Below the pieces are notes generated by a model, which searched no databases, had not been told where the DNA came from, and saw nothing but the letters and a program-made list of their open reading frames with translations. Of a DNA stretch of 64,000 nucleotides, positions 3,418 to 15,809 are shown one piece after another (the first letter of the stretch is position 1; each line of letters starts with the position of its first letter). Origin of the DNA: Microbacterium croceum (GTDB lineage Bacteria > Actinomycetota > Actinomycetes > Actinomycetales > Microbacteriaceae); the NCBI RefSeq assembly GCF_023091245.1, contig NZ_JAHWXN010000001.1, forward strand, positions 310,001 through 374,000, given 5' to 3'. A program made the position numbers and the translations under genes.

Positions 3418-4101
3418 ATGCGCCGTCTCCGCTCTCTCGCGTCCGTGGTCGCCCTCGCCCTGGGGCTCACCGGCTGCAGCACCGCGCCCGCTCCCGACAC
3501 CGAGGCCACGCCGGGAGCCGGTCCGCTGGTCGCCTTCTACGGCGACTCCTACACGCTCGGCACGGGGGCCAGCGACCCGTCGTTGCGCTGGTCCACCCTC
3601 ATCAGCGAAGAGCGAGGCTGGAACGAGTTCAACCCGAGCGTGAACGGACTCGGATTCGTGAATCACCGCGCCGACTTCGGCGAGAACGACCTCCCCGCAC
3701 TCGTCATCGCGCAACGCCCCGACATCGTCTTCGTGACGATGGGCCTGAACGACAACTTCAGCTTCCCCGGTCGCGCCGACCTGATCCACGAGACCATCAC
3801 GGCGGATCTCACCCGCCTCCGCGACGCTCTGCCCACCGCGCGGATCATCGTGGTCGAACCGTTCTGGTACACCGACGAGCGCCCCGACTCCGTCGCGACG
3901 ATCATCGACTGGACCGCGGATGCCGCCGCAGCGATCGATGCGGACTGGATACCCGGCGCGAGCCGCTGGCTCGACGGGCACTACGCCGGAGCCGACGAGA
4001 GCTGGATGGCAGCCGACGGCATCCACCCCTCCGACATCGGGTACCGGCACCTGGCCGCGCAGATGGATGCCGCGCTCGCACGCCTCGATCCGGCGCTGTG
4101 A
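3418..4101 (+). CDS. SGNH-hydrolase lipoprotein
   Basis: 227 residues. The N-terminus has two arginines, a hydrophobic stretch and a lipobox ending LTGC (Cys20), so the mature protein should be lipid-anchored outside the membrane. The SGNH hydrolase blocks are present in order: GDSYT (block I serine), GLNDN (block III Gly/Asn) and DGIHP near the C-terminus (block V Asp/His). Such enzymes are esterases or lipases on small esters, acetylated polysaccharides or lipids; the true substrate is unknown. Its 3' end is 12 nt from the convergent DUF11 surface-protein gene. Confidence 0.85.
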   Translation: MRRLRSLASVVALALGLTGCSTAPAPDTEATPGAGPLVAFYGDSYTLGTGASDPSLRWSTLISEERGWNEFNPSVNGLGFVNHRADFGENDLPALVIAQRPDIVFVTMGLNDNFSFPGRADLIHETITADLTRLRDALPTARIIVVEPFWYTDERPDSVATIIDWTADAAAAIDADWIPGASRWLDGHYAGADESWMAADGIHPSDIGYRHLAAQMDAALARLDPAL

Positions 4102-4113
4102 CCGGCGCTCGCT

Positions 4114-6639
4114 CTAGCCCTGCCGCACGGCGCGGCGGCGGACGGTGAACCACAGCCCCGCTCCGAGAAGCACCGCGCCGAGCACGCCACCTCCGATCCA
4201 CGCGGCGCCTCCTGTCGCGGCGAGACCCGAGGGGAACACCGTGGTCACGGCTACACAATCCTCGTCGAGCGAGCCCGCCGGGCAGTTCGCCCCGGCTCCC
4301 TTCGGAGTCGTCACGACGTTGCGGAGCTCCCCGGCTCGCTCCACGGTCACCGCGTACGTCACGGTCGCCGTCTCGCCCACGTCCAATGCGCCCGCCCAGG
4401 ACAGCACCGGCTCGTCGTAGTCGGCACCCCCGCTGGCGAAGCCGTCGTACGTGCCGAGGCGGAGCACACCGGTCAGGTCGTCGGTGAACGACGCGGGCGT
4501 GTCCGCCGTGTAGGGCACGTCGCCGGTGTTCGTCACGGTGATCGTGAAGCGCACGGTGTCGCCGACGGCGGCGCGCTCGACCGACGCCTGTTTGCGCACC
4601 TCGTAGCTCGCCACCGACGTCTCGGTGCGGCAGGCGCCGGGCTCCGCGCACGTGCCACCGGGCCCATCGGCGACGACGGTGTTCCGCAGGATCCGATCGC
4701 CGTTCTCCGACCGGTCGACGGTCACGGAGTACGTCACCGTGACGGATTCACCGATGCCGAGCGCCCCGCTCCACGACAGCTCGTCTCCGATCACGACAGC
4801 ACCGGCGGAGGCATCGCCGTTGTAGGTCGCGTCATCCAAGACCCCGGAGAGATCGTCGATGAATGACGCCGGCGCGTCCGCGGTGTACGGGACCTGCCCG
4901 ATGTTGGTCACCGTGACCTCGTAGCCGACCTCTCCTCCGCCCACCACATCCTGCACGTCCGCCGTCTTCTCGACCGAGTACGCCGCAACCGCGGTATCGG
5001 TGCCGCACCCGTCATCGACGCACGCCCCGCCGACCGCCGCGGGAGTGACCACGTTGCGCAGCGAGAAGTCGCCGCCGACGGGGTCGTCCACCGTCACCGA
5101 GTAGGTCACCTGAAGCGTCTCGCCCACGTCGAGCGGTCCGGCCCACGTGAGCAGGTCGCCATCGACCGCCCCACCCGCGGAGACATCGTCGTTGTACACG
5201 GCGTCATCGAGCACATCGGAGAGGTCGTCGGCGAAAGACGCAGGATCATCGTCGGTGTAGGCGACCTCCCCGGTGTTCTCGACCGTGATGTTGTAGGTCA
5301 CGACATCGCCGGGGCGTGCCACCTCGGGCTCGACCGACTTCTCGATGGCGAACGACGCGACCGGCAGCGCAGGCACGCATGTGACGGCCGTCGCCGCGTC
5401 GTTGCCCGCCACGGGATCCTGCTCGTTGCCGAGGACCGTCGCGGTGTTCGACAGGCAGGAACCGACGGGCGCGGCGGAGTCGGCCTCGATCTGGAAGGAG
5501 GTCGACTCCCCCGGGTCGAGACGACCACCGCTGACGGTCACCGTGTTCCCGCTCACGTCGACCGTGAAGCCGCCGACCACCGCGGGGTTGCTGAGCCCGG
5601 CGGGGAGTGTGTCGGACACCGTCCAGCCACTCGATTCCCCCGCACCGTTGTTGGTGACCGTGATCTCATAGCTGATGCGCTCGCCCGATTCATGCGTCGC
5701 CGGGACCTCCTTGGCGATCGCGAGATCGGTGGGCAGTCCCGGAATGGCCGTACCGTCGTTGAAGTCGGATCCGGGGCCCGGCACGGTCGAGATGATCTGG
5801 AAGCCGGGCGTCGTGGTGGCGCCGTCGGTGATCTCGAGCTGGGTGACATCGCCCGTCGCATTCGCGGAGAAGCCCAGATTGCCGTTTCCGAAGTTCCACA
5901 CCCCGCCGTACCCGTCGGTCGCGGCCGGCATCACCCCGGGAAAGACCGTGATGCTGCCCGTCGCCACGTCGATGCGGCGCAGATCGCCGGCGTTGTTCGC
6001 GCCCCACGCGAACCCGTCCTTGAAGGCGAAGTCCTGCACGCCCGGCTGCACGCCGAGGTCGATGGTGCTCACGACGGCCCCGGTGGCCACGTCCAGTGCG
6101 TGCACCGTGGTGTTGGGGCCGAAATCGGAGATGTAGAACAAGCCGTCGGCGGGGTTGAACGCCCCGGAGAAGAAGCGGGTCGAGCCGGTCGCCGGATGCG
6201 TGTACACCGCCGTGCCGACACGCGTGACGGTGCCCCCCTGCCCGACACGGACCAGCGATCCGAGCGGGATACCCGGGGTCGCATTGCCGGTGACCATCGC
6301 GTAGATGAAGTTGTCCGCCTCGTTGAAGCCGATCGCGTTGTAGCCGACCGGAGCCGTCCCGCCCTCATCGCTGAACACGAAGGAACCGTCCTCGAGCGTC
6401 TGCGAACGCTGAAGCTGCGATGGGCTGTTCTGCGCGATGAAGATCGCAGGGGCGGTCGGATCGAATGCGTCGCCCGGAGCGGCCGACGCGGGAACCGGCC
6501 CCGCCACGGGATTCACCGCCGTCAAGAGTCCGGCGGCGACGGCCAGCACTGCGCCGAAGGTCGCGGCCGGTCGCGGCCGCCTGCCGCGCTGAGCGTGAGA
6601 ACGGAACCCTCGGGGAAACAGTTCGGTGATCCGCGTCAC
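4114..6639 (-). CDS. Cell-wall-anchored DUF11-repeat protein with LAATG sorting signal
   Basis: 841 residues from the GTG at 6639. A signal peptide (VLAVAAGLL..., cut near ASA-AP) leads into a beta-propeller-like region (DUF6923-like, FNEADNFIYAMV), then one DUF11 domain (IAKEVPATHESGERISYEI) and three tandem DUF11-like repeats of about 115 residues, each with NTGxVxYT and PASFxDDL blocks. The C-terminus has LAATG (about 806-810), a membrane helix and RRR, the classic sortase substrate layout. LAxTG is the motif favoured by class E sortases, so it is probably anchored by an enzyme outside this window. It may be a stalk or adhesin. The start is uncertain because no strong ribosome-binding site is seen; upstream frames run to 6834. 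Confidence 0.8.
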   Translation of the reverse strand: MTRITELFPRGFRSHAQRGRRPRPAATFGAVLAVAAGLLTAVNPVAGPVPASAAPGDAFDPTAPAIFIAQNSPSQLQRSQTLEDGSFVFSDEGGTAPVGYNAIGFNEADNFIYAMVTGNATPGIPLGSLVRVGQGGTVTRVGTAVYTHPATGSTRFFSGAFNPADGLFYISDFGPNTTVHALDVATGAVVSTIDLGVQPGVQDFAFKDGFAWGANNAGDLRRIDVATGSITVFPGVMPAATDGYGGVWNFGNGNLGFSANATGDVTQLEITDGATTTPGFQIISTVPGPGSDFNDGTAIPGLPTDLAIAKEVPATHESGERISYEITVTNNGAGESSGWTVSDTLPAGLSNPAVVGGFTVDVSGNTVTVSGGRLDPGESTSFQIEADSAAPVGSCLSNTATVLGNEQDPVAGNDAATAVTCVPALPVASFAIEKSVEPEVARPGDVVTYNITVENTGEVAYTDDDPASFADDLSDVLDDAVYNDDVSAGGAVDGDLLTWAGPLDVGETLQVTYSVTVDDPVGGDFSLRNVVTPAAVGGACVDDGCGTDTAVAAYSVEKTADVQDVVGGGEVGYEVTVTNIGQVPYTADAPASFIDDLSGVLDDATYNGDASAGAVVIGDELSWSGALGIGESVTVTYSVTVDRSENGDRILRNTVVADGPGGTCAEPGACRTETSVASYEVRKQASVERAAVGDTVRFTITVTNTGDVPYTADTPASFTDDLTGVLRLGTYDGFASGGADYDEPVLSWAGALDVGETATVTYAVTVERAGELRNVVTTPKGAGANCPAGSLDEDCVAVTTVFPSGLAATGGAAWIGGGVLGAVLLGAGLWFTVRRRAVRQG

Positions 6640-6770
6640 GAAAGCGCTACGCCGGAGTCCTGATGTGTACAGGTTCCCCACCACCTGACCGACCCAGGTC
6701 GGATGCTCCCGGTCTCCCCAGGCCGGGAGGGGGGACGGGCCGCGAACGCCGCCCTCCCCCGATTCCCCAC

Positions 6771-6802
6771 CTCCGGCCCGCGCATCGCAGCGCGGGCCGG
6801 AG
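6771..6802 (-). terminator. 12-bp GC hairpin after the sigma factor gene
   Basis: CTCCGGCCCGCG (6771-6782) and CGCGGGCCGGAG (6791-6802) pair perfectly around an 8-nt loop, immediately beyond the sigma-factor stop at 6804. A second, weaker hairpin (GGGAGGG/CCCTCCC, near 6725-6759) follows. Confidence 0.65.
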
Positions 6803-6803
6803 T

Positions 6804-8519
6804 TCATTCCGCGGTGAAGTTCCATGTCGTCCACGGCCCGTAATCTCCCGTCGCCGGGTTCGCGTAGCGGAGGCGTATCGAGTGCGAGCCTGGCGCCACT
6901 GAGAGGTATTCATTCCATGCGCCGCTGCGCGGTACTCGGATGGTCTGGATGGGCGTCGCGCCGACGATCTGCCGCTGGAGGACCGTGCCCGCCTCCGCCG
7001 TGAACGCGAAGCGGAACCGGGTGGCGGTCACCGTCGTGCCGGATACCGGCGTCGCCGCGGGCGGCGGTGACGACAGGGTGTAGGTGAGCGGTGCACTCGC
7101 GGGCGAGGTCCGGCCCGAGACGATCTGTCGCGCGGTGACGGATCGCGTGCCGGCGTCGGCGGACGTCAGATGCGCGGTCCAGGTACCGTCCGCTCCGGCG
7201 ACTGTGTTCGCGATCGTCGCACCCCCGCTGTCGAGGATCTCGACCACCGCGCGCGGCGCCGCATCATCGCCCGAGACCTTCGGATACATCCGGGAGTCGA
7301 GCTGAGCGATCGCGGCTCCGGGCGCCGCCGGAGTCGACGGGGTCTCGCCCTGCCCTGGCGGACCCTGGTCGGGACGTCCTGCTCCGCCCGCTCCGGGAGC
7401 CGCGGAGGGCTCTGCACCCGGCAGGAACGGGAGAGACGAGACCTGCGGCGATGGGAGCGGCGACGGGGTCGCGCCCGGAGACGGGGAAGCCGGCGGGGTG
7501 GAGCCTGCCGGTCCGGGCGAGGGTGCCGGTTGCGCGGTCGACGGCTGCGCCCCGGCATCCGACGGCGACGGCGAGGTGAGCGCGGCATAGGCGCCGAACG
7601 CCCCGAGGGCGAGCAGGAGCAGCAGCAGAGCGAGGAGGACGAGCCTGCGCCGCCGCGACGACGCGTTCGTGCCCGCGGGCGCGTCCGAGACCAGGGCTTC
7701 GGCCCCCGATGCCATCGCCACCGAGAGCGGAGGCGGCCCGAGGGTGGAGACGTAGCCCGCAGCACCCGAGACCCCCGCCACTGCGGGGAGCACCGACATG
7801 GTCAGGTTCGAGAGGTTCTTCGCCTCCTCCAGCGCCTGAGGACACGTGGGGCACGAAGACAGGTGCGACTCGAGCGTGGCGCGCGCCCGTGCGGACAGCC
7901 CATCACGCGTGTGCGCTCCCATGCCCTTCAGCGCTTCGCGGCACTCCGGCGTCCTCGCCCCGGAGAGCTGTGCGGTGATCCATCCATCGCGCAGACCCCG
8001 CTTCGCACGCACGATCAGAGCCGACACGGCGTTGGGGGCCATCCCCAGGAGCACACTGATGTCGCGCGGCTTCATGCCGTCGACCTCGCTGTACCAGAGC
8101 ACCTCCTGCCAACGGGTCGGCAGCCCGCGGAAGGCCTCCAGCGCCGCCCCTCCTTCGAAGCTCTCCACCGCGGAGAGCTCTCCCTCGGGAGCGGCCGGGT
8201 CGATGACGTACTCGAAATCGTCCACCGCGATGGAGGTCTCCTGCACGTACCACCGCCGCCCGACGTTGCGCACCGCCATGATGAGGTACGGACGGAACCC
8301 GGTCGTGGGGCCGCCGCCGGCCTTGATCGACCGCAGGACACGAGCGAATGCCTCCGAGACGATGTCATCGGCGTCGAGGTAGTCGAAGGTCCGCGCCACG
8401 GAGTACGCGGGACCGGCGTGACGCCGCCACAGCTCTGCGTAGGCCCCGGAGTCCTGCTCACGGACGCGCTGAACGAGGTCTTGATCAGAGAGGGAGTCGG
8501 GAGTCTCCCCTGCGCTCAT
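6804..8519 (-). CDS. ECF sigma factor fused to zinc-finger anti-sigma, membrane helix and extracellular domain
   Basis: 571 residues. Sigma region 2 (about 25-90, with DADDIVSEAFARVL) and sigma region 4 (about 125-178, with LPTRWQEVLWYSEVDGMKPRDIS) form a complete ECF sigma factor. Behind them is a zinc-binding anti-sigma motif (Cys193, then HLSSCPTC with His219, Cys223, Cys226), a basic RRRR and one membrane helix (about 293-314), a 100-residue Pro/Ser/Gly linker, and a C-terminal beta-rich Ig-like region (about 420-571). ECF groups with C-terminal anti-sigma and membrane extensions are known in actinobacteria. The layout implies a membrane-tethered sigma factor that must be freed or opened by a signal outside. 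It sits inside the pilus locus, the likely target. ATG 8519 has GAGAAGGGAA upstream. Confidence 0.85.
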   Translation of the reverse strand: MSAGETPDSLSDQDLVQRVREQDSGAYAELWRRHAGPAYSVARTFDYLDADDIVSEAFARVLRSIKAGGGPTTGFRPYLIMAVRNVGRRWYVQETSIAVDDFEYVIDPAAPEGELSAVESFEGGAALEAFRGLPTRWQEVLWYSEVDGMKPRDISVLLGMAPNAVSALIVRAKRGLRDGWITAQLSGARTPECREALKGMGAHTRDGLSARARATLESHLSSCPTCPQALEEAKNLSNLTMSVLPAVAGVSGAAGYVSTLGPPPLSVAMASGAEALVSDAPAGTNASSRRRRLVLLALLLLLLALGAFGAYAALTSPSPSDAGAQPSTAQPAPSPGPAGSTPPASPSPGATPSPLPSPQVSSLPFLPGAEPSAAPGAGGAGRPDQGPPGQGETPSTPAAPGAAIAQLDSRMYPKVSGDDAAPRAVVEILDSGGATIANTVAGADGTWTAHLTSADAGTRSVTARQIVSGRTSPASAPLTYTLSSPPPAATPVSGTTVTATRFRFAFTAEAGTVLQRQIVGATPIQTIRVPRSGAWNEYLSVAPGSHSIRLRYANPATGDYGPWTTWNFTAE

Positions 8520-8599
8520 CGTCGGCTTCCCTTCTCCGTGCGCCGCGGCCGCTCCACCCCCCGGAGAGCGTCATTTGATCGAGCATATTGGAATACTGT

Positions 8600-8654
8600 C
8601 TGCCCGACGAAGGGGTGCCGCTCGCCGCTGCGGCGAGTGGCACCCCTCGGGCAG
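8600..8654 (-). terminator. Strong multi-part hairpin downstream of the large surface protein
   Basis: CTGCCCG (8600-8606) pairs with CGGGCAG (8648-8654), AGGGGTGCC (8611-8619) with GGCACCCCT (8639-8647), and GCTCGCC with GGCGAGT inside. It begins 7 nt after the stop of the IPFTG protein gene (8661), so the sigma gene downstream should have its own promoter in 8520-8599. Confidence 0.7.
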
Positions 8655-8660
8655 CGGGGC

Positions 8661-11600
8661 TCAGCCGAGCACCCTCCGCCGCCGCTGCCACAGCAGACCC
8701 GCGCTCATCAGCGCGAGAAGCGCCCCGGAACCGACCCAGAAGCTGAAGCTTCCGACACCTCCGGTGAACGGTATCGACGGCACCTCGGAGAGCTCGTTCT
8801 CGATCGCCTCCGACAGAGCCGTCACACCCTGCACATCGACGAATCGCGGTGTCGGGTCGAGCTGGAAGCCCGCGGGAGCCCGTGTCTCCACCAGGCGGTA
8901 GCGGCCGTCCTCGAGCGGCTCCACTCGGATCAGACCCGCCTCGGGGTCCACGTCCGGTCCGGTGCACTCCGCAGGGTCACCCGCGACGCAGTCGACGACC
9001 GCGACGGATGCTCCGACGGGCTGGTCATCCGCGTCGACGGGGGTGAGCTCCCACTCGGAACCTTCGAGTCGAGTGCCGTTCTCGACGCTGACCTTCTCCC
9101 ATGACAGGCTCGACGGCAGCACCTCGATACCGGCGGGGTCGCACGACTCCTCGACCGGTGCGGGCTCGCCCGGTGCCGGCGCCGGCGCATCCTCAGGGGC
9201 GACGCACGCGGTGTTGACGAGGTACCCGCCATCGGGCCGGTCGGTGAGGTCGACCTGGTACTCGATGGTCACCGCGTTCGCCTCACCCGGCAGCAGCTCG
9301 GGGAGCACCGCTCCCGCGGCGAGGCCGGCCGGAAGGGGATCGAGGGCGGCCAGATCGACACGGTCATCCGTGATCACGAGGTCGCGCAGCGTCTGGTCAC
9401 CGGTGTTGGTGACCACCAGACGGTACGTGAGCGTCGATCCCGTATGGAACCGGGGGTAGTCGTCGACGTCGTTCGCGTCATGCCACTCCCCCTCCGCGTC
9501 CTGCACGTACTTCTTCAGCGCGACGGAGTTCACCGCGCCGATCTCGAAGCGACTCGAGGTGCGCATGGCCAGTTTCGTGCGATCGGATCGCGCCTCGGCC
9601 CGGTTGACGTAGACGTCCTCGAAGGTCGCGCCGCTCGTGACGACGGCGATCGTGAACTCCTGCATCGCCGACGGGGCGAGGGCGGGCCCGATCACGCGCA
9701 CGGCCGTGGCGTTCGCCGCGAACGTCGTGGACCATCCGACCGTGTTCCCCGTGACGGTGCCGGCCGCGCCGTTCGACGCGTCCGCAGGATCGTCGACGAG
9801 GGTCGCAGGGTCAGCGGTCGTGTAGTACACCGTGGCTCCGGCGGCTGCCTGCACCGGTGCGCTCAGGACGTAGTCGCCGGTGAAGTCCGTGCCGCGTCCA
9901 TCGCCGTTGTACGGGAGGATGTCGACGGTGTCGGTGAACGCCTGCGGGCGGGTGTCCTTCGACGAGATGCGCACGGTCCACGAGTCCTGGGCCACACCGT
10001 GGTCATGGGGGACCTTCGCCTGCGCGGCGGTCTTGGTGAGCATGGTGTAGCCGCCGTCGCGGATCTGCGTCGAGGCGCTCGAATCGACCGTGACGCCCCC
10101 GACCGACGCCGTTGCCGTGTTCGCGAACACGTCTCCGGGCTTCGCATCGGCGGGGATGCGTGCGCTGAACGTGATGACGAACTCCGTGTTCGTCGGCACG
10201 TTGCTCAAGGCCCACTCGATGTTCTGCCCGGTGATCGATGTCGGTGCGGTCGAGGCGCTGCCGGCCACGTACTCCATGCCCGCCGGCAGCAGATCTCGCA
10301 CGGTCATCTGGCCGATGACCGCGTTCGACGGCGCCTCGGCACGATAGGTGAGCGTGTAGTTCACCGTCGCGCCGGGAATCGTCTCCTGCTGATCGACCAC
10401 CTTCTGGATCGTCGGCGTCGCGGCGATGATGCGGAGCACATCGCGCCCACCGGCGGTGAAGGGATACCGCGAGTTCGGAGTCAGAACGCCGACTGCCGAT
10501 ACGTCCGCAGGGTTCATGGAACGGGTCTGGTTGGACCACGTCGTTCCACCGTCCAGCGTGTAGGAGGTCCACGTCCAGATGTCCTGGCCGACGGCCACGG
10601 TGGGCTTGATCACGGACTTCACGAACAGACGCGGGATCGCCTCGGAAATGGTCAGACCCACCGCCGGCGTGATGATCGCCTTCACGGCACGCACGGTGCT
10701 CATGTTGGCGGGACGTGTAGTCGTCCACCCCGTACCGTCGCACGTGAAGGTGTTGGGGTTGTAGTTGGCGTGCAGCGGGTTCATGTTGTTCGACGTTCCG
10801 TTGCCCGTGTAGTACTGGTACTGCACACCCGGGTAGGCAGTGACCTGCCCCGCCGATATGGTTCCCATCGCCGCGTCGGTGACGTCGATGTAGCGCGAAT
10901 CGACGATCGTGCAGACCTGGGTGCTCCGCGTCGCCCCGGCCAGGGGAGGGCGCACTCCTGAGCTGGAGAGCGCCGGCTGACCGGCGAGCGTGCGGAAGGT
11001 GTCCGTCCAGACCGACCCCTTCGCCGGTGGGTCGAGGTTTCCCAGGCTCCACCCGCCCGTCCAGACTCCTCGCGTCGAGGCGACGCTGTTGGTGTTGTTC
11101 GACGCGTCGTCGACCGATGTCGTCCCGAGCTGGGACGTGTACGTGGGCACGCTCGCCTGGAACGAGGTCGACGTCGGGTCCGTGTAGGTGAACTGGATCT
11201 TGATGAGACCGGCGGCGACCACATCCCACTCAGCGGGAAGAGCCGTGCCGCCCGAGTCGAGACTCGGGCGCAGGGTCTTGGAGTAGTCGATACCCGTCAG
11301 GGTGAGACGCAAGCGGTTGGTGCTGAGAGCGGTGAGCGTGCACGTCGCAGGGAACGGCGCCGTCTCGGCCGCCGGGTGTCCCGTGCCCGAATACGGGTGC
11401 CCCGCCTGGGTGGAGCTCTGAACGACGCACCCCGGCGTCATCGCAGTGATCGTGTTGCCGGCGGTCGACGAGAAGGTGAGGTCGTAGCTGACGCTGTTCG
11501 GACCTGCCGCCGAACCAGGGGCGTGGCGCAGCGACCAGGGGAAGGAGAGTTCCTGCCGAGCGCCTGCCCCTGTGCTCGAGGGGCGGCCGGCATCGAACTT

Positions 11601-12155
11601 CATGTCCATCGCGAACGCGTTCAGGATGGGAATCTCCGGGAGTGCCGCCTGCACGCCGCCGACCGATCCGGAGATCGTCACGCCAGAGCCGGTGGCGCCA
11701 TCGACTTTCAGCCCGGCCAGCATGAGCTCCGCGGTCCCCTGCTCGCGCGTCCCCAGGTTGCAGACGAGCGTGTGACCGTCGGCCGAGATCGACGAGATCG
11801 GATCCACGCCCTCGGTCAGACAGACGGACGGCAACGCGGTGAACTTCGCGTTCTGCGCGGTGAAGGTGACCGTGACGTTGTCCACGGGATCGTTCGTGGG
11901 CGCGGCCGAGTCATCGTTGATGTTGAACCGCCACTCGGAGACGAGCGCGTCCCCTGAAGAGACCTGTGCGGGCACCGGTTTCTGCCACTGCCCCTCGATC
12001 TCGTACACGGTCGCCGCCTGCGCAGCATCGCCGTACACGATGCCGAGGCTTCCGACGACAGCCAGAGTGGCCATGACCGCTCCGGCTCTCCGCGCCCATC
12101 CTCCGAACGCACGGCGCGAACGCCGCCGCCGCCCGAACATGCTCTTCTCCCGCAT
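8661..12155 (-). CDS. Large LPXTG-like surface protein (pilus tip or adhesin candidate), IPFTG sorting signal
   Basis: 1164 residues from ATG 12155 (an ATG at 12140 with GGAG 6 nt upstream is an alternative). The basic N-terminus and hydrophobic stretch end at AQA-AT, a signal peptide. The body is beta-rich with DUF11-like modules (VDQQETIPGATVNYTLTYR; LRDLVITDDRVDL), then a SpaA-type prealbumin-like domain carrying the E-box segment LVETRAPAGF. The C-terminus is IPFTG (about 1128-1132), a membrane helix and QRRRR. Size, position directly after the pilin sortase gene and the E-box suggest a tip or minor pilin that the class C sortase joins to the shaft; this is inferred. A strong terminator follows the gene. 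Confidence 0.85.
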   Translation of the reverse strand: MREKSMFGRRRRSRRAFGGWARRAGAVMATLAVVGSLGIVYGDAAQAATVYEIEGQWQKPVPAQVSSGDALVSEWRFNINDDSAAPTNDPVDNVTVTFTAQNAKFTALPSVCLTEGVDPISSISADGHTLVCNLGTREQGTAELMLAGLKVDGATGSGVTISGSVGGVQAALPEIPILNAFAMDMKFDAGRPSSTGAGARQELSFPWSLRHAPGSAAGPNSVSYDLTFSSTAGNTITAMTPGCVVQSSTQAGHPYSGTGHPAAETAPFPATCTLTALSTNRLRLTLTGIDYSKTLRPSLDSGGTALPAEWDVVAAGLIKIQFTYTDPTSTSFQASVPTYTSQLGTTSVDDASNNTNSVASTRGVWTGGWSLGNLDPPAKGSVWTDTFRTLAGQPALSSSGVRPPLAGATRSTQVCTIVDSRYIDVTDAAMGTISAGQVTAYPGVQYQYYTGNGTSNNMNPLHANYNPNTFTCDGTGWTTTRPANMSTVRAVKAIITPAVGLTISEAIPRLFVKSVIKPTVAVGQDIWTWTSYTLDGGTTWSNQTRSMNPADVSAVGVLTPNSRYPFTAGGRDVLRIIAATPTIQKVVDQQETIPGATVNYTLTYRAEAPSNAVIGQMTVRDLLPAGMEYVAGSASTAPTSITGQNIEWALSNVPTNTEFVITFSARIPADAKPGDVFANTATASVGGVTVDSSASTQIRDGGYTMLTKTAAQAKVPHDHGVAQDSWTVRISSKDTRPQAFTDTVDILPYNGDGRGTDFTGDYVLSAPVQAAAGATVYYTTADPATLVDDPADASNGAAGTVTGNTVGWSTTFAANATAVRVIGPALAPSAMQEFTIAVVTSGATFEDVYVNRAEARSDRTKLAMRTSSRFEIGAVNSVALKKYVQDAEGEWHDANDVDDYPRFHTGSTLTYRLVVTNTGDQTLRDLVITDDRVDLAALDPLPAGLAAGAVLPELLPGEANAVTIEYQVDLTDRPDGGYLVNTACVAPEDAPAPAPGEPAPVEESCDPAGIEVLPSSLSWEKVSVENGTRLEGSEWELTPVDADDQPVGASVAVVDCVAGDPAECTGPDVDPEAGLIRVEPLEDGRYRLVETRAPAGFQLDPTPRFVDVQGVTALSEAIENELSEVPSIPFTGGVGSFSFWVGSGALLALMSAGLLWQRRRRVLG

Positions 12156-12201
12156 CTCTCCCCCTGTGGTGTGTGTCGTCATTGCGTCGTCTTCGCTGGA
12201 C

Positions 12202-13194
12202 TCAGGCGCCATCGCCGTGAGTCTCCTTCGTGGTCTCATGTGTTGCCGTGTCGCGTGGCATCCGCATCCGCGCATCGGCGAAGCCCTGCCGGGCCACGTA
12301 CGCCGCGACGAGAAGGGCCCCTCCGCCGCCGAGCACCGCCCACCAGGGGAAGCCCGGAATCACCGGGGCCTGTCCGGCTGCCGAGAGGTCGGCCTCCGGT
12401 GTGGGCGTGATCCGCTCCCCGGTGACGAGGATGCGGTGCGTGTTGATCCCCAACGGCGTGCAGGTGATCAGCGTCACCAGGTCTTCGCCCGGCTCGGCAC
12501 GCAAGGTGTCGGTCTGGTCGGGCTCGATCACCTTGGTCTCCCTGACCCGATAGGTCAGCACCCGCCCGAAGGTCTCCACGGTGATGGTGTCGCCAACCTC
12601 GACCCGGTCGAGGTCGGTGAACATCGTCGCGTTGGCGAGACCGCGGTGCGCCGTGATCACCGAGCGCGTCCCGATCCCGCCGACGGGCAGGTGCGACCCT
12701 TCGAGGTGGCCGGCACCGCGGGCGAGGACGGCGTCGCTGGTGCCGTGGTAGACCGGCAGGTCCACATCGATACGAGGGATCTTCACCCGCGCCATCAGAC
12801 CGGCCGCGTTCGCGCTGAGGATCTTGGTGTAGTCCAGCGAGTCGTCCGAGAGCGTGCCGTCACCGACCGGGATGTTCGCATTCTCGCCGAGCACGACTCC
12901 GGCGCTCAGGGCGTCGTTGTATTCCCGCGCCTGCCGCAGCTGCTCCTCTGCGCTGGGCTCGACATCGGCGATCGCCGTCTCGTAGCCGACCAGCACCCGC
13001 GACTGGTTGTAGGACGTGATCCATGCCGCCGTCATCGGGTAGAGTCCGGCGCCGAGCCCGCCGAGGGCGAGCACGGCGATGACGATGGTCAGCCCGCCGG
13101 GCCTCCACCGCCGGGCAGCCACTGCGCGGCGGTCGCCGCGCAGCGCGGTGCCGATGGCCGGCTCCGCCATCTCCGGCGCTTCCCGTGTCTGCAT
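12202..13194 (-). CDS. Class C (pilin-polymerising) sortase
   Basis: 330 residues. An N-terminal membrane helix (LTIVIAVLALGGLGAGLYP), the sortase beta-barrel with the catalytic His in TAHRGL, Cys in TLITCTPLG and Arg in HRILVTGER, then a second membrane helix (WWAVLGGGGALLVAAYV) and a charged tail. Two membrane segments and the TLITCTP/GxNTHR form mark class C, the enzymes that link pilin lysines to LPXTG threonines. The canonical lid DPF/W is not obvious. It lies between the major pilin and the large IPFTG protein, the standard pilus-operon order. ATG 13194 follows a GGGGAGAG sequence. Confidence 0.92.
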   Translation of the reverse strand: MQTREAPEMAEPAIGTALRGDRRAVAARRWRPGGLTIVIAVLALGGLGAGLYPMTAAWITSYNQSRVLVGYETAIADVEPSAEEQLRQAREYNDALSAGVVLGENANIPVGDGTLSDDSLDYTKILSANAAGLMARVKIPRIDVDLPVYHGTSDAVLARGAGHLEGSHLPVGGIGTRSVITAHRGLANATMFTDLDRVEVGDTITVETFGRVLTYRVRETKVIEPDQTDTLRAEPGEDLVTLITCTPLGINTHRILVTGERITPTPEADLSAAGQAPVIPGFPWWAVLGGGGALLVAAYVARQGFADARMRMPRDTATHETTKETHGDGA

Positions 13195-13223
13195 GCCGCT
13201 CTCTCCCCTTCTGTGCGCGAAGG

Positions 13224-13264
13224 TGTTCCGGGCTGAGGGCCTGAGTGCCCCTCAGCCCGGAACA
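13224..13264 (-). terminator. 16-bp intercistronic hairpin after the pilin gene
   Basis: Arms 13224-13239 and 13249-13264 pair perfectly over 16 bp around a 9-nt loop, starting 9 nt beyond the pilin stop and before the sortase start. No T run follows. It is well placed for partial termination or mRNA 3'-end protection, giving more pilin than sortase. Confidence 0.65.
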
Positions 13265-13272
13265 GCTCGGTG

Positions 13273-14793
13273 TTACTCGCCGGCGACCACGCGACGGCGG
13301 TGCTTCATCAGCAGCAGTCCGACGGCCACGATGAGCGCACCCGCACCAGCGGTGATCAGGATGAGCTGACCGTTCGCACCCGTCAGAGGCAGCGGCGGCA
13401 CCTCCTGCTGGGTGTTCACGATCTCGACGTTGTCGGAGGTGGTGGTCGCTCCGACCAGCACCGCCACCGAGGTGAACGGGTCAGCGGGCAGCACGTACCC
13501 GGACGGCGCGGCGATCTCCTTGAGCACGTAGCAGCGCTGCGTGGCGTCGATCGCCGGGTTGACGCTGTCGCTCACGAAGAGCCCGGCGATGGAGACGACT
13601 CCGGTGCCTGCCGAGGTGAACTCGGTCTGGCCGTTGACGGCGACGGGGTCACCGGCAGCCACGGCGGCCGAGCAGTCCTCGGCGTACGGGTCCGCGGCGT
13701 TGTACACCTCGAACGTCGCTCCGTTCAGGCGGCCCTCAGAGCCGGTGGTCCCGGCGCTGCGCTTCTGCACCTCGAGGTTTCCCCAGTAGGTCTGCACCTC
13801 GTTGGAGGGCACGGGCGGCTGACCGTCGGGGTCGAAGCCGGGGTTGTTCGGCCAGAGCTCGGCCTGGTTGGTGATCGCGCCGTCGCCGACCGCGACGACG
13901 GTTCCCGCGAACACGACCTTGATGGCGGTGCCGACGTGGGCGTTCGGGCCCTCGTTCAGCCAGGCGATGCCGGCCGCGGTGAAGTTCATCGTCACCTGCT
14001 GACCGACGACCGTGACCTCGTAGAACGACGGGTCGAGCGCCGCGCCACCCGCGGTGACCTCCACGTCAGCGGCGGCGATCGGCTCGAGACGGTCGTCCAG
14101 CGTGTCGCGGATCGCGAAGCCGGTCCACGTCTGCTGCATCGTGGGCACGGGCACCGTCACGGGGAAGCGGATCACCGCTCCGAGTCCGGTGTCCTGCTGC
14201 GGCTCGACCGTCTTCTCGACGACGCCCTCGCCGTTCTTCGGGTAGGCGTGCACGTCGTACACCCAGCCGCTCTCGTGCGGCATCGGAACGGTGAGGATGA
14301 ACGGCGTCGCCCGATCGACGATGATCGCCGGAGCCGACGTCTCGCACACCTGGTAGACACCGACCGCGAGATCGATGCTCGCCGCGCCCTGGGCGTCCGT
14401 CGCGGGGAGCGTGATCGGCGCGCCGAGCGTGTAGCCCGCGGGCGCCGCGCACGCGGCACCGGCGGCGAGGTCGCTCAGATCGTTCCAGTTCTCCGGAACG
14501 CTCAGGTCGATCGGGGTGCCGCTCTCGAGCAGCGGGTACGCGGTGAAGACCACGCCCGCCACCGGGTCGGTGAAGTCACCCGCGGCCGGGGCCTGACTGA
14601 TATCGCCCTCGACATCCCCGTCCTGGTGCAGATACTTGTGCACCGTGAGCGAACCCGTGCGATCGGGGTCGATGTTGCCGTAGTCCTGCGGAGCCGCGTA
14701 TGCGGCCGTGCCTGCGCCCATCACTGCGCCCAGGCCGAGCGCCGTCACCCCCATGAGCGACAGCACCCGCCGTGTCTTGTTGCGTTCAGCCAC
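13273..14793 (-). CDS. Major pilin subunit, SpaH/EbpB type, LPLTG sorting signal
   Basis: 506 residues. The signal peptide ends near AYA-AP (33). The pilin motif WVYDVHAYPK places the cross-linking lysine at about 186. Two Cna-B/SpaA-like beta domains follow: one near 190-340 and one starting LEVQKRSA, with the E-box YVLKEIAAPSGY. The C-terminus carries LPLTG (about 468-472), a membrane helix and KHRRR. These are the hallmarks of a covalent Gram-positive pilus shaft. The GTG at 14793 has GGGAGGGAG about 9 nt upstream; the frame continues further up but without a signal-peptide-compatible start. It is the first gene of the pilus cluster. Confidence 0.93.
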   Translation of the reverse strand: MAERNKTRRVLSLMGVTALGLGAVMGAGTAAYAAPQDYGNIDPDRTGSLTVHKYLHQDGDVEGDISQAPAAGDFTDPVAGVVFTAYPLLESGTPIDLSVPENWNDLSDLAAGAACAAPAGYTLGAPITLPATDAQGAASIDLAVGVYQVCETSAPAIIVDRATPFILTVPMPHESGWVYDVHAYPKNGEGVVEKTVEPQQDTGLGAVIRFPVTVPVPTMQQTWTGFAIRDTLDDRLEPIAAADVEVTAGGAALDPSFYEVTVVGQQVTMNFTAAGIAWLNEGPNAHVGTAIKVVFAGTVVAVGDGAITNQAELWPNNPGFDPDGQPPVPSNEVQTYWGNLEVQKRSAGTTGSEGRLNGATFEVYNAADPYAEDCSAAVAAGDPVAVNGQTEFTSAGTGVVSIAGLFVSDSVNPAIDATQRCYVLKEIAAPSGYVLPADPFTSVAVLVGATTTSDNVEIVNTQQEVPPLPLTGANGQLILITAGAGALIVAVGLLLMKHRRRVVAGE

Positions 14794-15105
14794 CTGAACG
14801 TCTCCCTCCCTGTATGGCCGTGTGGCCCCCAATGGCACACCGGGGTTCTCGCCCACAGTGACCTCTTCGCCATACCGGACTCATGCCGACGGAGATCGTG
14901 ACGCGGATTGCAGAAATACTTTTCGCGGCGCTGTCGACCCCGCTGATCGGCGCCGACTCGGACGATTCACGTCACGTTCTGGTCGCGAAGGGGTCATGCA
15001 TGTGACGAGCGTCCTCCCCAGTCGCTCGTCGGGATGCGCGTGCATCCGCGGTGGGATCGGGGGCGCTATTCCCTCCCCGAAGAGGTTCCCGATCCCCCGT
15101 GTCGT
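14794..15105. other. Upstream region of the pilus operon
   Basis: Holds the presumed pilin promoter (minus strand) and, at 15053-15096, the terminator of the BLUF gene. A relatively A/T-rich patch lies at 14911-14925 (AGTATTTCTG on the minus strand). No promoter can be placed with confidence and no gene is evident. Confidence 0.4.
15053..15096 (-). terminator. Hairpin downstream of the BLUF gene
   Basis: GGGATCGGG (15053-15061) and CCCGATCCC (15088-15096) pair perfectly over 9 bp around a 26-nt loop, 10 nt past the BLUF stop. Confidence 0.45.
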
Positions 15106-15552
15106 TCAGCGGCGGGCGCGCACGCGGAACCAGAGCGACAGCTCGGAGAGCGCGCGCACCGTGCGGGAGCGGTCGGAGTCGACGTCGAGATCGGCGAACG
15201 AGTCCCGATACCCGTCCGGCCGCGGTTCCGTGAGTCGCGAGAGGCTCTGGTAGCCCATGGTCCAGTCCGGGAACTGGCGCGCCGAGATGCCCTCCAGCAG
15301 CAGGATCCTCATGCCGCGATGACGGCCGTCACGGGCGATCACAGCGGCGAGCGCGGTGACGACGCCCCGTGCCCCCTCCAGCACCTGGATGAAGCGGCCG
15401 TCGCGGTAGAGCAGCATCCCCGTCACGGCGCGGGCTCCGTTGGCGTCTCGCGACTGGGCGAGCAGGCCGGACAACGCGTCATCATCGAGGGGGCGCACCG
15501 CCGTGCTCGTGTAGACGAGGGAGACCAGGTCGTCTGCGGACACGGCGGTCAC
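15106..15552 (-). CDS. BLUF-domain blue-light photoreceptor
   Basis: 148 residues. The BLUF fold (residues about 8-100) binds FAD and senses blue light through a Tyr-Gln-flavin hydrogen-bond switch. The key residues are in place: Tyr14 in LVYTS, Asn38 in SRDANGARAVTG, Gln56 in GRFIQVLEG, and the late Trp/Met block DWTMGYQSL. There is no fused output domain, only a short basic tail, so it is a short BLUF protein that must act on a partner. The GTG start overlaps the stop of the upstream 86-aa gene by 4 nt (GTGA), suggesting co-translation with that protein. Confidence 0.88.
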   Translation of the reverse strand: MTAVSADDLVSLVYTSTAVRPLDDDALSGLLAQSRDANGARAVTGMLLYRDGRFIQVLEGARGVVTALAAVIARDGRHRGMRILLLEGISARQFPDWTMGYQSLSRLTEPRPDGYRDSFADLDVDSDRSRTVRALSELSLWFRVRARR

Positions 15553-15809
15553 AGGACGACACCGTCCTTCTGGTCGCGCGCATCACCCGGCTGTGCGGGC
15601 GCGAAGTCGGACGAGCCGACGGCCGAGGTGGCGTCGTGCAGAGTGTCGAAGCGGCCGATGTTCTGCGCACGGGCGTCGAATGCCGCGTAGGAGCCGTCGG
15701 GCTGACGATCGACGTAGCCGAGGAACTCGCCGACGCGGCTTCCGACATGGAAGCCGTCTTCGACGCAGGCCCACAGCACATCAGGATGACGGTCGGAGGA
15801 GTCGTTCAC
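15549..15809 (-). CDS. Small acidic protein co-translated with the BLUF receptor
   Basis: 86 residues from GTG 15809, no recognisable family. The sequence is acidic, mostly soluble, with a central aromatic region (VEDGFHVGSRVGEFLGYVDRQPDGSYAAFDA). The start is supported by TACGCT (15816-15821) exactly 6 nt upstream, a leaderless -10 geometry. Its stop overlaps the BLUF start, so the two are one transcript and may be functional partners; that is inference from coupling only. Confidence 0.6.
   Translation of the reverse strand: MNDSSDRHPDVLWACVEDGFHVGSRVGEFLGYVDRQPDGSYAAFDARAQNIGRFDTLHDATSAVGSSDFAPAQPGDARDQKDGVVL

Follow-up and report, generated by a model that had tools for sequence, protein, structure and literature searches.

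A one-piece ECF sigma-receptor within a sortase pilus cluster of Microbacterium croceum and its probable control of that cluster

Sortase-assembled pili are usually viewed as being under the control of cytoplasmic transcription factors. ECF sigma factors with fused anti-sigma tails, for their part, are already known in actinobacteria, as the first-pass annotation of the DNA studied here had pointed out, and are described as groups ECF48, ECF52 and ECF53 (PMC8999054). In the actinobacterial ECF52 (SCO4117 of Streptomyces coelicolor), the sigma factor, a zinc finger, a membrane helix, a Pro-rich linker and an outside domain lie in one chain, and both positive autoregulation and proteolytic release have been proposed (PMC5826349; PMC8999054). 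According to the passages of PMC8999054 that describe them, ECF48 and ECF53 are C-terminal fusions with a zinc finger and one or two membrane helices, and are expected to be activated by proteolysis; those passages mention no link to pili. Similarly, IutY of Pseudomonas putida (ECF243) is a sigma factor fused to a membrane anti-sigma, and Prc and RseP bring about its release (PMC8999054). That the sigma part is freed in these relatives is supported by truncated forms of SCO4117 and IutY (PMC5826349; PMC8999054).

Here we describe a protein of this kind in a 64-kb stretch of the Microbacterium croceum genome (GCF_023091245.1, contig NZ_JAHWXN010000001.1), referred to below as the window. We consider it likely, with a probability of about 0.7, that this protein is a membrane-tethered ECF sigma factor, with a fused anti-sigma domain, a membrane helix and an outside sensor, built into the pilus operon that it would control. 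What the sequence shows directly is the order of the domains, the setting in the cluster, and a class of promoter common to receptor genes and pilus operons.

The pilus cluster and its receptor

The cluster lies on a single strand, in the order major pilin, class C sortase, SpaA/DUF11 protein, receptor and DUF6923/DUF7927/DUF11 protein. Its features, with the parts of the receptor and the promoter-like sites discussed below, are as follows (window coordinates).

14968..14995, plus strand: weaker divergent promoter-like site with one mismatch, from the genome motif scan
14878..14905, minus strand: ECF-type promoter-like site, CGCGTCACGA-N15-GTC, in front of the pilin gene (start 14793)
13273..14793, minus strand: major pilin, SpaH/EbpB type, LPLTG anchor (NCBIfam 354.4 bits, cut-off 95)
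12202..13194, minus strand: class C (pilus) sortase (NCBIfam 247.9 bits, cut-off 160)
8661..12275, minus strand: SpaA/DUF11 tip-like surface protein, IPFTG anchor, start uncertain
6804..8519, minus strand: one-piece sigma-receptor, a single open reading frame of 571 aa
8247..8432, minus strand: sigma region 2, residues 30-91 (Pfam PF04542)
7998..8141, minus strand: sigma region 4, residues 127-174 (Pfam PF08281)
7842..7943, minus strand: zinc anti-sigma motif C193...H219-x3-C223-x2-C226 (zf-HC2 below cut-off, four residues invariant in 28 of 28)
7578..7658, minus strand: membrane helix, residues 288-314 (AlphaFold2), with RRRR just before it
7329..7577, minus strand: disordered linker rich in Pro, Ser and Gly, residues 315-397 (sequence; pLDDT mostly <50)
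6807..7328, minus strand: ectodomain of two Ig-like domains, residues 398-571 (AlphaFold2, fold matches)
6632..6659, plus strand: second promoter-like site, between the DUF11 and receptor genes, antisense into the receptor 3' end
4114..6639, minus strand: DUF6923/DUF7927/DUF11 surface protein of 841 aa, LAATG anchor-like end, start uncertain

The class C sortase adjoins the LPXTG major pilin, which identifies a class C sortase pilus locus. The pilin start (GTG at 14793) was picked for the GGGAGGGAG that precedes it, in an ORF that is open from 14856. As the first-pass annotation had noticed, the receptor gene lies between genes for sortase substrates, since the IPFTG SpaA-type protein and the LAATG DUF6923/DUF11 protein adjoin it. 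Compared with a close relative in genome G117 (locus L032), similarity per 100 bases is 68-100% over about 4100-15100 and 28-64% in the flanks; as the similarity ends at about 4100 and 15100, the locus looks like an island. A BLUF blue-light sensor gene stands directly upstream of the pilus cluster (15106-15552, minus strand), probably outside the island because L032 has no DNA similarity there. A GC hairpin lies 3' of the SpaA-type gene, and a consensus scan of positions 6400-9000 found no classical sigma-70 promoter and no T-tailed terminator. Two Rfam matches at 4000-15700 were both far under their gathering scores, and we therefore make no riboswitch claim. A reading of the locus as a defence system was dropped, as a PADLOC scan gave no match.

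In the receptor, both sigma regions exceed their Pfam cut-offs (Sigma70_r2, 26.7 bits against 24; Sigma70_r4_2, 31.3 against 25.7), the NCBIfam sigma70-ECF model is also passed (48.8 against 42.9), and Pfam gives no match to region 3, which is the make-up of the ECF family. A sequence search of solved structures returned only ECF sigma factors (best E 1.9e-4), and the nine best structural matches to the sigma part include sigmaE-RseA, SigW-RsiW and BldN-RsbN. Behind it, an H-x3-C-x2-C motif with an upstream Cys has the form of a fused zinc anti-sigma (ZAS) domain. Although zf-HC2 itself scores under its Pfam cut-off at residues 193-226 (19.8 bits against 22.2), C193, H219, C223 and C226 are unchanged in all 28 aligned sequences (the query and 27 homologues), across which 65 alignment columns, the zinc ligands among them, are invariant. 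The membrane helix, first placed at 293-314, is found at 288-314 by AlphaFold2, and the N-terminus is predicted to be cytoplasmic because RRRR precedes the helix. The proposed Pro/Ser/Gly stalk likewise appears in AlphaFold2, as a low-confidence linker at about 316-392.

The outer end has the Ig-like fold that had been proposed for it, but comprises two beta domains rather than one (residues 398-571, pLDDT 93-97). Pfam gives the outside part only Ig-like matches below cut-off (Big_6 at residues 415-474, 21.4 bits against 27.6), and its fold matches are adhesin and FnIII/Ig domains, compatible with sugar binding. The terminal domain (487-571) matches 35 of 163 receptor ORFs, a total that includes repeats of the same loci, and none of the other ORFs of the fetched loci (E <= 1e-3); being confined to receptors, it looks like a dedicated sensor. 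The idea of sensing through shared domains was dropped: searches with the domain at 398-485 gave no match to the window's pilin, although they did reach six ORFs outside the called receptors, two of them lying in another frame over a receptor gene. The receptor ORF is not a chance read-through, because relatives keep the full architecture.

Distribution of receptors and their surface-protein partners

Within the genus Microbacterium, which holds the closest named homologues, 108 of 149 genomes have a match at E <= 1e-10, but the best match is <1e-100 in only seven; the remaining matches are mostly distant paralogues that align over the sigma and anti-sigma part. At the family level, matches at E <= 1e-40 were found in 21 of 60 genomes (60 genera, own genome counted). 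The same fusion does recur beside sortases in other genomes, a check that the first-pass annotation had proposed. Class C sortases gave 56 matches in 44 of the 149 genomes, and when all 56 surroundings were examined (three stretches ended at contig ends), receptor and pilin lay within 10 kb at ten; an eleventh receptor-bearing pilus locus, L102 of M. paraoxydans, comes from another genome collection. The M. croceum genome has four class C sortases, and a receptor is nearby only at the one in the window.

A quick maximum-likelihood tree was built from 106 sigma-plus-anti-sigma rows (103 inner branches, 33 of them weak); its proportions are biased, because the rows were partly chosen for pili. 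The window receptor groups with five others (SH-aLRT 98); all six stand at pilus loci with the gene order pilin-SrtC-SpaA-receptor, and this set is nested in a clade of 13 (SH-aLRT 99). That clade holds 12 full receptors, six at pilus loci and six elsewhere. Its thirteenth row (L048_9413), with 290 aa and no membrane helix, is left out of the 12; it lacks a DUF11-type neighbour within 3 kb, is attached to L034 by a long branch, and its placement may be wrong. No pilus was seen within 10 kb of any receptor in a large clade of 57, which includes the window genome's own paralogue (L042, C1:1649224-1650051), 41% identical to the receptor in an ORF of about 720 aa. Nine further rows, in two distant clades of 5 and 4 rows, stand at a second pilus type, with two receptors each at L047, L049, L050 and L079 and one at L083. 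On this tree the label 'pilus' needs three changes, two of them forced by well-supported branches, with gains and losses indistinguishable; the combination of receptor and pilus is seen in two distant lineages. A family living mostly away from sortase loci had been taken beforehand as an argument against a pilus role. Indeed, 91 of the 106 rows are away from a class C sortase with pilin, yet all six members of the closest set are beside one.

The partner found most constantly is another surface protein. A DUF11-type protein is encoded in the cluster of all 12 full clade receptors, directly beside the receptor in ten (838-1955 aa in the ten measured); in L035 and L036 its gene does not adjoin the receptor but comes first in the cluster, upstream of the pilin. 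In six clade members neither pilin nor class C sortase was detected in the surrounding 20 to 22 kb, and there a DUF11-type anchored protein is encoded directly upstream of the receptor. All 12 members, with or without pilus genes, have the same ectodomain. Furthermore, receptors of other lineages, some of them in other genera, lie by or near unrelated anchored proteins: SdrD_B (L113), DUF7507/SdrD_B (L169), a long Rib protein (L046), very large LAGTG proteins (L108 and L109) and those at L198, L200, L201, L213 and L215. It is thus possible, though on balance doubtful, that the receptor mainly serves its DUF11-type partner, sensing the export or anchoring of this protein and adjusting its synthesis, with the pilus genes as a later addition to a receptor-adhesin pair of older origin, an explanation that overlaps our own. 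However, the promoter-like site in the window faces the pilin, whereas the site near the DUF11 gene points away from that gene; no CGCGTCACGW occurs in the 6 kb around the start of the DUF11 gene in L035 and L036, where it is the first of the cluster; and in L034 the head domain of the partner is CshA_NR2 and not DUF6923, with the same receptor ectodomain. At L201 (9031-19234), a 1977-residue ORF with an LALTG anchor is flanked by two sigma-receptors, and in genome G151 the receptor L216 is divergent from another pilus locus.

These comparisons also bear on the signal. Unpolymerized pilin, which had been suggested for this role, is an unlikely candidate, because receptors without pilus genes keep the same ectodomain and their constant partner is the DUF11-type protein. 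Similarly, the pairing of one ectodomain with two different partner heads argues against the head of the partner as ligand. We would tentatively suggest that the likeliest signal is the condition of the DUF11-type partner or of the cell surface.

Promoter-like sites and rival regulators

Alignment of 24 sites, whose invariant core reflects how they were chosen, gave the consensus CGTCAC-N16-(C)RTC, in which A/T-rich positions precede the core and RT(C) at +25 to +27 forms a second element. This conserved motif has ECF-like spacing (about 16 bp) and stands at putative operon and receptor promoters. Its exact bipartite form occurs three times in the 3.68-Mb genome, two of them in this locus, at 14878-14905 (minus strand) and 6632-6659 (plus strand); with up to one mismatch there are 49 genome sites against 16 for the reversed control. 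The claim for the motif rests on its bipartite form and position, because in the window the 10-mer by itself, with one mismatch allowed, shows no enrichment (22 observed, 28.6 expected). A shared motif upstream of 14793, 8519 and 6639 had been predicted. It is present at 14793, but none was found at 8519, which would make the receptor gene part of the pilus transcript; the site near 6639 is on the opposite strand and faces away from the DUF11 gene.

This second site (6632-6659, plus strand) has an exact counterpart in L102 and a one-letter variant in L032 (16.7 bits, above that of the window), with no counterpart in L033, and could possibly act as an antisense brake. In the spacer beside it, positions 6701-6800 form the only 100-base block identical between the window and L032, other blocks of the locus being at 68-98%. 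The idea that this ECF-DUF11 spacer is a widespread RNA was rejected, as a full match was found only in the window's own genome and G117, while six others among the 149 genomes matched short pieces. Further motif-like sites, close to the start of an operon or partner gene but pointing the opposite way, were seen in L035 (1893, minus strand), L192 (3604, minus strand) and the window (14968-14995, plus strand).

The motif recurs at corresponding positions in related loci. Its exact form precedes the pilin in all six pilus loci of the window's clade (in L036, at 2533, it falls inside a presumed overlong ORF call). The upstream regions show CGCGTCACGA in front of the pilin; in the no-pilus loci it is the DUF11 gene that is preceded by CGCGTCACGA or CGCGTCACGT. 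In a scan that allowed N14-16, the CGCGTCACGW-type motif gave 23 matches, all with N15, in 17 of the 22 loci of class A and the sister clade (two of the 22 being second copies of a locus), against 2.2 expected under a Markov model, five matches in 83 other receptor loci and eight in 45 receptor-less pilus loci. In the sister loci L040, L041, L107, L108, L109 and L111 it precedes an adjacent LuxR-type (GerE) gene, and in L040, L041, L107 and L111 another site precedes the receptor ORF or lies at its start. Within the second pilus lineage, the variant CCGTCATAAAA-N15-GTC precedes the first pilus gene in all five loci (that of L050 lying in L196), and the form CCGTCACGATT precedes one receptor gene in L047, L049 and L050. 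The motif variant therefore goes by receptor lineage: CGCGTCACGW in class A and the sister clade, CCGTCATAAAA at the operon of the second pilus lineage, and mostly GCGT(C/A/G)ATGA or similar in the others. Related sites upstream of the receptor gene itself in other lineages form the pattern that an autoregulated sigma factor would give.

Because its pattern had been partly built on the same loci, an earlier enrichment (10 of 11 loci against 3 of 46 entries; Fisher 6.9e-8) was set aside in favour of a matrix trained on receptor-gene promoters outside class A, the sister clade and the second pilus lineage. The training set comprised the 31 of 76 receptor genes with a seed site within 200 bases; its sequences are independent of the tested loci, but the seed pattern was written after the motif had been seen, near-copies occur among the 31 sites, and L051 comes from the wider clade of the second lineage. 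With this matrix, the pilin site ranks first among 127,944 window positions on both strands (15.2 bits), followed by the 6632 site (11.9 bits) and then by a score of 7.2. The operon site ranks first or second in eight of the 11 receptor-bearing pilus loci (window 1, L032 2, L033 1, L035 9, L036 22 and L102 8; in the second lineage, L047 1, L049 1, L196 2, L079 1 and L083 1). When the spacer columns were omitted, this held for seven of the 11, with the site of the window in second place (L032 2, L033 3, L035 6, L036 40 and L102 6; L047 1, L049 1, L196 2, L079 1 and L083 1). Despite their lower ranks with the full matrix, L035, L036 and L102 each carry an exact CGCGTCACGW-N15-RTC. In the six no-pilus relatives the ranks were 10-137, with the -35 part before the DUF11 gene and the full motif only in L034. 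Among receptor-less pilus loci, where operon starts are rough estimates, a top-two site lay near the estimated start in two of 31, L089 (20.6 bits) and L093 (2.6 bits). These 31 were drawn from 46 entries; 15 were omitted (no upstream genes, most starts at the edge of the stretch, and the second L054 entry), and L053 and L054 were retained though at the edge of the stretch. Neither L074 nor L080, the receptor-less loci with the most similar pilins, has such a site at the pilin, and a pattern scan found no motif at the receptor-surface gene pairs of L198, L113, L169, L201, L213 and L216. In L055, also receptor-less, the class A motif stands at the start of the tip-gene ORF, and no receptor was found in the genome (86% complete). 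Thus, from the matrix ranks and the positions of the sites, sigma control of the pilus operon, the receptor's own gene included, is a well-supported prediction. The recurrent gene order and the promoter-like motif likewise support the proposal that the receptor is part of the surface locus and is probably its switch.

The tree and the motif together make it rather unlikely that the receptor is a general envelope or stress regulator that hitch-hikes in the pilus island, the pilin site serving another sigma factor such as the paralogue at C1:1649224. Such a role would suit a family whose rows are mostly away from pilus loci, as well as the 41%-identical paralogue, whose gene has a related promoter-like site in front of it. 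It would also suit the pilus operon L089 (genome G012), where the strong site has no receptor near it and receptor matches lie on another contig, so that this operon may be controlled in trans. Yet the motif variant tracks the receptor lineage, the class A form is concentrated in the 22 clade loci as counted above, and the receptor and pilus co-occur in two distant lineages. Separately, we observed that the paralogue adjoins genes for a GH20 hexosaminidase, an amidohydrolase and a FAD-oxidase. Finally, it is highly improbable that we are dealing with a surface protein, degenerate or locked, whose sigma part has become inactive in transcription: the zf-HC2 and Big_6 scores are under their cut-offs, but both sigma regions are over theirs, the invariant columns include the zinc ligands, and a matching promoter class is conserved.

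Proposed mechanism and comparison with known systems

If the receptor controls the pilus operon, as we prefer to think, its zinc anti-sigma domain and the membrane would restrain the sigma part at rest, by analogy with its relatives. The sigma part would then be freed when the two Ig-like domains outside the cell receive a signal, through regulated proteolysis or a conformational change, and the freed sigma factor would guide RNA polymerase to the putative CGTCAC-N16-(C)RTC promoter before the pilin. Going by the gene order, pilin, sortase, tip protein and more receptor would be made together, giving positive feedback. We infer both that this sigma factor binds the pilin promoter and that the receptor gene is transcribed from there. 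A bolder proposal, which we consider speculative and not very probable, is that the pilus island is a self-contained, transferable switch, with its own sigma factor, an adhesin-like sensor that reads the fibre layer, feedback through the pilin promoter and an antisense brake at 6632-6659 (plus strand), present in two distant Microbacterium pilus lineages.

The fibre cluster seems to bring its own membrane receptor, which is a sigma factor with a recognizable promoter, and one protein would couple surface sensing to fibre production. For an orphan one-piece sigma-receptor, both a target gene and a promoter can thereby be clearly predicted, which makes the question of what its outside domains sense directly testable.

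Like other SpaA/SpaH-type sortase pili, the system described here has a class C sortase, an LPXTG major pilin and a SpaA-domain protein in one cluster, but its operon also carries an on-board sigma-receptor. In SigI/RsgI of cellulosome clostridia, a membrane anti-sigma carries outside domains similar to the surface apparatus that it controls; these are two separate proteins with a sigma factor of another class, whereas the window has a single chain, and pili. The promoter-like site resembles the BldN promoter (CGTAAC, CGTTGA). It differs from the motif given for ECF52, CSGYN-17bp-SRHA (PMC5826349). Unlike ECF52, furthermore, the receptor has two Ig-like domains outside, with no carbohydrate-binding domain recognized, and its locus is a pilus operon, while IutY belongs to a Gram-negative iron-siderophore system with another signal and another locus. 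In Bacillus cereus, the ECF sigma factor bc2794 is tied to genes for surface filaments (matrix filaments) and biofilm, but those filaments are sortase-independent, and the account of them in PMC13082335, as far as it was available, names neither a fused receptor nor a shared operon. Our literature search found no paper that ties one-piece sigma-receptors to sortase pili, the available text of PMC13082335 and PMC13251363 included. The fusion architecture is thus already known, and it is the link to surface fibres that is new.
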